A stretch of DNA of 64,000 nt, taken from Candidatus Nanopelagicaceae bacterium. Its GTDB lineage: Bacteria > Actinomycetota > Actinomycetes > Nanopelagicales > Nanopelagicaceae. Under the pieces are notes generated by a model. It saw only the letters and a list, made by a program, of their open reading frames with translations, was not told where the DNA came from and did not search any database. The position numbers and the translations under genes are program-made. Positions 45,556 through 47,263 of this stretch are shown piece after piece. The stretch covers positions 1 through 64,000 of the forward strand of contig VEQG01000003.1 of assembly GCA_018883345.1 (NCBI GenBank). Reading direction: 5' to 3'. The stretch's first letter is position 1; each line of letters starts with the position of its first letter.

Positions 45556-45807
45556 ATGTTTAGTTACGTCAAAAAAGTTTGGCGTAAATTGCCGCACCCG
45601 CTTCGCTGGCTAACTGCTGCTACTGTCGGTTTCACATTGCTGGTACTAGGCATTGTGTTCTTAGTTATTCCTGGCCCAGGAATTCCATTGATAATTGCGG
45701 GTCTTGCGATTTTGGCTACCGAATTTACATGGGCTGAAATTTGGTTAGCGAAAACCAAGGGACATGTAAGTCGCGCCGTAAATCGAGTTAAAAAGAAGAA
45801 GTCTTAA
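45556..45807 (+). CDS. PGPGW transmembrane protein family (TIGR02611-like)
   Basis: VFLVIPGPGIPLIIAGLAILATEFTWAEIWL. Confidence 0.82.
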   Translation: MFSYVKKVWRKLPHPLRWLTAATVGFTLLVLGIVFLVIPGPGIPLIIAGLAILATEFTWAEIWLAKTKGHVSRAVNRVKKKKS

Positions 45808-45983
45808 AGACCGCTGCGTCGATCTCTGCGCACGGTGTAGATAATTCCTACAAAGCCAAGTGCTGCGCCAACAACGCAAGTCCAAATGAATTTAGATTCT
45901 GCATCAATAAGCAGGCCGATGATTCCAGCAACAATCCAAGCAATTATGCCTGCGATTATTAGCGTTACCATCTTTGTTTTCAT
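45804..45983 (-). CDS. small membrane protein, 59 aa (DUF2530-like)
   Basis: Reverse strand reads MKTKMVTLIIAGIIAWIVAGIIGLLIDAESKFIWTCVVGAALGFVGIIYTVRRDRRSGL*; below ORF-track cutoff; family assignment by resemblance. Confidence 0.7.
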   Translation of the reverse strand: MKTKMVTLIIAGIIAWIVAGIIGLLIDAESKFIWTCVVGAALGFVGIIYTVRRDRRSGL

Positions 45984-45989
45984 GCGATG

Positions 45990-45995
45990 AGTGTA
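45990..45995 (-). promoter_or_regulatory. putative leaderless -10 (TACACT, 6 nt before ATG)
   Basis: TACACT-catcgc-ATG on reverse strand. Confidence 0.55.
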
Positions 45996-45999
45996 TTCT
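45994..45999 (+). promoter_or_regulatory. putative leaderless -10 (TATTCT, 7 nt before ATG)
   Basis: TATTCT-catctca-ATG; shares base pairs 45994-45995 with the reverse-strand -10. Confidence 0.55.
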
Positions 46000-46006
46000 C
46001 ATCTCA

Positions 46007-47263
46007 ATGTTTTCGAAAATAAGCCCGCATGGAAACTGGAGAGCGCTTCGCCATCGCAATTTTCGAATACTTTATGGAGCAAGCGTCTTAACAAATATCG
46101 GAACTTGGGCGCAACGTATTGCCCAAGATTGGTTAGTGCTCGAGCTAACCAACAATAACGGCACTTACCTTGGCATTGTTACCGCGCTGCAATTCCTGCC
46201 GGTAATGCTTTTAAGTATGCAAGGCGGGGTTTTAGCAGACAAAGTAGATAAGCGAAAAGCCCTGATTATCACCAATTTAGGAAGTGGGCTGACTGCGCTT
46301 TTACTTGGCGTGTTAGTAATCTCAAATGTAGTAACAATGAACTACATTTATATTTTAGCTATTTTACTGGGCGTATTTAGTGCAATCGATGCACCGTTTA
46401 GATCTAGTTTTATCATCGAAGTCGTGGGTAAAGATGATCTTACAAATGCCATGAGTTTAAATAGCGCAAATTTTCACTTTGGCCGTCTGGTTGGTCCAGC
46501 TATCTCTGGTTTTCTGATCGCTGGATTCGGAACTGGTCCATCATTCATAATTAACGGCATTTCATTTATCGTAATTATGTTTACCTTTATGGCGGTAAGG
46601 CAGCACGAACTGCATTTGCCTGAAAAAGAGAAAACCGCAGGCACTCTAAAGGAAGCATTTGCTTACATCAAGAAGCGTCCTGATTTGCAAATGATTATGC
46701 TTACTATTTTCTTTGCCGCAAATTTCGGATTAAACGCACAGATTTTCAATGCATTAATGGCGACAAAAGAATTTGATAGAGGTGCCGCTTCCTACGGAAT
46801 TTTAGGCACTGCCATGGGCATCGGAACCTTAACTGGCGCCCTTTATTCAGCGCGCAGAGATCGAACCGGAAAGCCACTCTTCGTTCCTTTAGCTGCAATG
46901 AATTTTTCAATCTGGGTTTTGGCCTTAGCGATAGCGCCGACCTATGAAATCTATTTGCTTTTGCTTCCGATTAATGGATTCAGTGCATTAACCACAATGA
47001 TTTCAGCCAACACCTATATTCAGGCAAACTCCGATCACGCGATTCGAGGTCGGGTAATGGGTATTTATATGTTCATATTCATGGGTGGCACGCCCATAGG
47101 TTCTCCGATTATTGGGTTCACTGCCGAACATCTTGGCCCACGTATAACAATTGCGGGTTGTGCGCTTATCACTTTTGGTGCCGCGCTCTTTGCCTTCATA
47201 AAATACCGAAAAATAGCGAAAATTCCGGCAGATATTACGGTTTCGTCAGTACTTCAGAACTAA
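46007..47263 (+). CDS. MFS transporter (start moved from 45974)
   Basis: MFSKISPHGNWRALRHRNFRILYGASVLTNIGTWAQRIAQDWLVLELT; 12 TM pattern. Confidence 0.88.
   Translation: MFSKISPHGNWRALRHRNFRILYGASVLTNIGTWAQRIAQDWLVLELTNNNGTYLGIVTALQFLPVMLLSMQGGVLADKVDKRKALIITNLGSGLTALLLGVLVISNVVTMNYIYILAILLGVFSAIDAPFRSSFIIEVVGKDDLTNAMSLNSANFHFGRLVGPAISGFLIAGFGTGPSFIINGISFIVIMFTFMAVRQHELHLPEKEKTAGTLKEAFAYIKKRPDLQMIMLTIFFAANFGLNAQIFNALMATKEFDRGAASYGILGTAMGIGTLTGALYSARRDRTGKPLFVPLAAMNFSIWVLALAIAPTYEIYLLLLPINGFSALTTMISANTYIQANSDHAIRGRVMGIYMFIFMGGTPIGSPIIGFTAEHLGPRITIAGCALITFGAALFAFIKYRKIAKIPADITVSSVLQN

Follow-up and report, generated by a model that had tools for sequence, protein, structure and literature searches.

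The 23-base-pair (bp) spacer between two divergent genes at positions 45984-46006 of the window (the whole analysed stretch of 64,000 nucleotides from a Nanopelagicaceae draft genome) probably functions as a single bidirectional promoter that belongs to the 23-bp class and starts two leaderless mRNAs. One of the genes encodes a small DUF2530 membrane protein and lies on the minus strand, its ATG being read as CAT at 45981-45983, and the other encodes an MFS transporter and begins on the plus strand with ATG at 46007-46009. This coding-to-coding spacer, read directly from the letters, is GCGATGAGTGTATTCTCATCTCA, and it holds both predicted core promoters: TACACT-N6-ATG for DUF2530 (-10 element on the minus strand at 45990-45995, AGTGTA on the plus strand) and TATTCT-N7-ATG for the MFS gene (-10 element on the plus strand at 45994-45999). 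The two elements overlap within AGTGTATTCT (45990-45999), and the base pairs common to them, TA at 45994-45995, correspond to -12T and -11A of both promoters. A previous sequence-only reading had described the spacer length, both hexamers and the shared TA, and a letter-for-letter check found all of them, with their coordinates, to be exact.

Both starts are predicted to be of the leaderless type, as each -10 element ends 6-7 bp ahead of its start codon, and there is no AGGAGG-like Shine-Dalgarno motif in 45984-46006 in either orientation. The predicted transcription start of DUF2530 is the A of its ATG (45983, minus strand), 7 bp from -7T, N6 being the most frequent leaderless distance genome-wide. 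For the MFS gene, N7 matches the second leaderless peak and the predicted start on the plus strand is at 46006-46007, 7-8 bp from -7T. As the forward discriminator has 7 bp, transcription in this direction may begin at A46006, which would place the two start sites 23 bp apart and leave a one-base leader, or else A46007 (24 bp, leaderless).

We surveyed 1.196 of the 1.398 Mb of the source genome, where 1151 genes were called and their starts were picked by coding potential only. TANNNT at N6 precedes 13.7% of the starts overall and 25.8% of the divergent ones, and at N7 it precedes 5.1% and 10.8%, respectively, against a background of about 0.3-1.5%. A Shine-Dalgarno-like motif is present in none of the 214 leaderless-like starts, and 229 other starts carry one. 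The N6 peak was also found in 400 kb from each of two relatives (20.5% and 16.4%), and a weak version of it is seen in high-GC actinobacteria (3.2% vs about 0.2%). Given these genome-wide peaks, the N6 and N7 distances at the two ends of 45984-46006 represent the exact leaderless register; in this order, a leaderless -10 element can be recognised from sequence alone.

The overlap itself was assessed in the 120 spacers of the same genome that separate divergent genes and are 12 bp or longer, with spacers shuffled in 2000 rounds as a reference. The leaderless signal is present in the reverse direction in 49 of them, in the forward direction in 41, and in both in 24. Among these doubly leaderless spacers, 10 have overlapping -10 elements and 6 share TA, a number far from random, as the shuffled mean is 0.09 and the maximum 2 in 2000. 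Besides the present locus (C19 45980), the same geometry is found in five further pairs (C27 51602, C27 55108, C54 59153, C18 13303 and C42 66358), and TA is shared in all five 23-bp spacers and in the single 22-bp one. In four doubly leaderless spacers of 16, 16, 17 and 18 bp the -10 elements overlap more deeply; examples are TAGGATA and TACCGTA, which fit the published 18-bp class. The spacer studied here, previously called a very compact case, is therefore not the shortest, and its rarity was overstated, as the arrangement appears again both in its own genome and in relatives. In G124, a genome of a second genus, one 22-bp and one 23-bp spacer both share TA, and 400 kb of G066 (genus g9) contain no shared-TA pair, hence the feature is not uniform.

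One objection is that both hexamers arose by chance in an AT-rich gap and neither gene is leaderless. TANNNT is indeed a weak pattern, and a consensus scanner calls no promoter at either hexamer. However, the enrichment is specific to the offset and the elements are conserved; the TANNNT profile of the genome, the conservation in comparison to shuffles and the shared-TA count in comparison to shuffles lead us to reject a chance origin, to which we assign practically no probability.

The -10 elements can overlap in a 22-23-bp gap because TA reads the same on both strands; once such a gap holds two leaderless promoters, the overlap is a matter of arithmetic. Five pairs of the genome have spacers of 23 bp and none has 19, 20, 24 or 25 bp, which, with these small numbers, is only suggestive of quantised lengths.

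Three other observations were made in this survey. A similar divergent pair occurs in opposite orientation and with slightly different spacers at C22 6611 and C16 10520, and becomes a 26-bp shared-TA pair once N8 is allowed; these two versions may come from the presence of a second strain in the draft. Two unrelated divergent pairs (C27 2820 and C42 109434) have 16-bp spacers with an identical core, TAAACTTTA, which gives TAAACT forward and TAAAGT reverse in the N6/N7 register. Finally, AGAATACTCT, with a shared TA, is retained both in the source genome (C40 2385) and in G124 (73422) at a divergent pair that encodes a small protein and one resembling a response regulator; the called forward start of this pair lies 1 bp downstream, and the true start may be a few codons later.

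At most loci examined across the family, DUF2530 lies next to the MFS gene in divergent orientation, and we compared this pair in 69 genomes of 9 genera, with counts set against shuffles. TANNNT stands at N6/7 before the DUF2530 start in 69/69 genomes (shuffle mean 5.1) and before the MFS start in 39/69 (shuffle mean 3.6). TA is shared in 5/69 genomes (shuffle mean 0.18), namely in the window and in four g11 genomes, which have AGCCTACAAT in the N7/N6 register and also a 23-bp spacer. Other members of g11 have separated -10 elements in spacers of 32-52 bp; from this and from the differing letters, rather than from a tree, we infer that the occurrences in the window and in g11 are probably independent. 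Across genera, this single gene pair shows separated -10 elements, abutting ones in g8 (spacers of 25-26 bp), ones that share TA (23 bp) and nested ones in g16 (17 bp) and L012 (18 bp). Together with the genome-wide statistics, this conservation strongly supports the proposal, already made in the sequence-only reading, of two leaderless promoters with common -10 base pairs. It needs to be mentioned that no relative turned up when genome contigs were searched with the MFS protein, and that among genomes reached by a GroEL match the locus was found in the flank of L202 only.

The difference between the two directions raises the possibility that only the DUF2530 promoter is real, that TATTCT is a chance hexamer and that MFS transcription comes from read-through of upstream genes on the same strand or from a promoter inside DUF2530. 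This would agree with the reverse element being present in all 69 genomes and the forward one in 39 only, and most g12 MFS starts, behind a spacer of about 12 bp, have no in-register -10 element. Nevertheless, the in-register forward -10 occurs at 11 times the shuffle expectation and in 8/9 genera examined, including all or nearly all members of g2, g8, g11 and g16, and an mRNA arising by read-through would carry no Shine-Dalgarno motif, as none precedes the MFS ATG in the window. We thus consider a purely reverse promoter unlikely. As for the short g12 spacer itself (CAT GAGAGAAGAGTA ATG in most genomes of L005-L031), the reverse -10 element abuts the MFS ATG there, and the MFS start has neither a leaderless -10 element nor a good Shine-Dalgarno motif.

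Several points weigh against the interpretation of the spacer as a bidirectional leaderless promoter. The 69 genomes are phylogenetically linked and their counts are not independent. In most relatives from g12 and g13 the forward -10 element is not in register, hence the MFS gene can be expressed in another way there. Genes of the same strand lie upstream (PGPGW, ending at 45807), and part of the MFS mRNA could also stem from transcripts that read through DUF2530. Moreover, no clear -35 signal was found among the 214 leaderless promoters of the genome, where matches of at least 4/6 occur in 26.6% vs 21.1% of shuffled sequences, only a slight excess. At the present locus, the best TTGACA-like match at a distance of 15-19 bp is 2/6 in the forward direction and 4/6 in the reverse one, a level reached by about 21% of shuffled upstream regions. 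It had been claimed that both -35 regions must lie inside the opposing coding sequences; the geometry behind this claim holds, as any -35 element would fall at about 45971-45976 and 46013-46018, whereas the word "must" is not supported, as no such element is clearly recognisable there.

Similar arrangements exist beyond this family and at another gene pair. In other families of the class, TANNNT at N6/7 precedes a candidate DUF2530 start in 23/28 loci, weaker evidence as the choice of start was free. Two genomes of family f4 (L287 and L289) again share TA at this locus, with spacers of 22 and 24 bp, and DUF2530 has a different partner there, a protein of 486-487 amino acids (aa) which, reading its sequence, we take to be an NCS2-type permease. 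A pair that we presume, likewise from the protein sequences, to be dapD and LOG is doubly leaderless in 30/30 genomes; its -10 elements are separated in many relatives, with spacers of 29-31 bp, and TA is shared only in G000 (the source genome) and G277.

According to the mechanism we propose, the 10-bp core would accept RNA polymerase in either orientation, with the self-complementary central TA supplying -12T and -11A to both -10 elements. A45990 (T on the minus strand) would serve as -7T for DUF2530, and T45999 as -7T for the MFS gene. One loading orientation should then give a DUF2530 mRNA beginning at its own ATG, and the opposite one an MFS mRNA beginning at the ATG or one base before it. 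Because the -10 elements overlap, only one orientation could be occupied at any time. On one hand, both promoters may work and be functionally independent, the shared TA being an arithmetic by-product without regulatory meaning, a view compatible with the anatomy described above. N6 and N7 in a 23-bp gap force the overlap, many relatives have separated -10 elements at the same gene pair (29-60 bp spacers), as is also the case for dapD/LOG, and in E. coli, tests of five bidirectional promoters showed basal firing too infrequent to make competition important (Warman 2026, PMC12825309). On the other hand, steric exclusion is unavoidable if one direction fires often, and strengthening such promoters in E. 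coli did lead to repression of the divergent RNA (PMC12825309). We regard functional independence as an even bet, and a regulatory consequence of the exclusion as no more than possible.

The spacer also contains a dyad, GATGAG-N6-CTCATC (45986-46003), centred exactly on the shared TA, and might be chiefly the operator of a repressor. Outside the fixed A/T, 6/9 symmetric positions match (binomial P about 0.01), and the dyad was also flagged as an inverted repeat. Yet the genome has no second exact copy, copies with one mismatch are found near the control level, and the other shared-TA spacers are symmetric at the level of chance (27% overall). We therefore rejected the dyad as an operator; it is probably a chance occurrence, and the operator function seems very improbable. 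A terminator-like match at 45986-46003 was rejected as well, as it is the same dyad, directly ahead of an ATG.

The source genome is a 1.4-Mb draft with about 42-45% GC, and its GroEL has Actinobacteria bacterium IMCC25003 (88%) and Candidatus Nanopelagicales metagenome-assembled genomes as the nearest named relatives. Judging by these matches, it very probably comes from an actinobacterium of this order and of the freshwater type. Both open reading frames flanking the spacer belong to conserved protein families. The DUF2530 gene (45804-45983, minus strand, 59 aa, ATG start at 45983) matches PF10745 with E=6e-8 and 33.3 bits, above the Pfam gathering cut-off of 25.5, and this family was found in 251/296 genomes of the order. 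The MFS transporter (MFS_3, PF05977, E=1.9e-61) is encoded at 46007-47263 on the plus strand and has 418 aa. An alternative start of this gene, TTG at 45974, is unlikely, as the N-terminus M-F-S-K-I-S-P-H-G-N-W aligns residue for residue with M-R-I-K-V-N-E-N-G-N-W of relatives. At the other end of DUF2530, the TTAA palindrome at 45804-45807 provides the stop codons of both this gene and the convergent PGPGW gene (plus strand, 45556-45807); with this shared palindrome, hardly any room is left on either side of the 180-bp DUF2530 gene.

The recurrence of this arrangement seems of more interest than the single spacer at 45984-46006. We tentatively propose, as a possibility with somewhat less than even chances, that divergent genes with leaderless starts on both sides represent a distinct architecture that recurs in these small actinobacterial genomes, in which spacer contraction stops at fixed lengths and some pairs become mechanically coupled at the promoter. 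In this scenario, with no untranslated region (UTR) as a buffer, contraction would stop at about 22-23 bp (shared TA) or at about 16-18 bp (nested -10 elements), the lengths being fixed because TA is self-complementary, and promoter-coupled pairs would make up about 5-8% of the divergent pairs in the source genome. A promoter core, both transcript starts and an intergenic region fitted into about 23 bp, at unrelated pairs, would indicate the practical minimum for the boundary between two coding sequences. Such pairs also offer a natural test set for how far polymerase exclusion at a shared -10 element couples two genes, and a clean one, as no leader and no evident -35 element complicate its reading.

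Our search for literature on leaderless genes of Nanopelagicales, or on leaderless genes with overlapping or bidirectional promoters, found nothing on point. Ordinary divergent promoters serve one gene each, a form seen in many relatives of this locus; here, in contrast, the -10 elements overlap and polymerase cannot occupy both. In bacterial bidirectional promoters, opposite-strand -10 elements overlap and start sites are commonly 18, 10 or 23 bp apart (PMC12825309, PMC10268837). In the 23-bp class described by Warman, Grainger and colleagues, -12T and -11A of the two promoters coincide, as derived from the spacing, exactly as at 45994-45995; a shared -12T/-11A combined with the usual 7-bp distance gives predicted starts 23 bp apart, and the distance predicted here is 23 or 24 bp vs about 23 bp in the published class. 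Leaderless transcripts, on the other hand, occur in actinobacteria and constitute nearly one-quarter of transcripts in mycobacteria (PMC4633059), and the difference here is that two leaderless promoters stand back to back with common base pairs. The E. coli paper (PMC12825309) makes no mention of leaderless genes, whereas at the present locus transcription is predicted to begin at both start codons, with no 5' UTR on either side. The type of promoter is thus already known, and what appears to be new is that both transcripts are predicted to be leaderless, so that promoter, 5' ends and intergenic region form one element.
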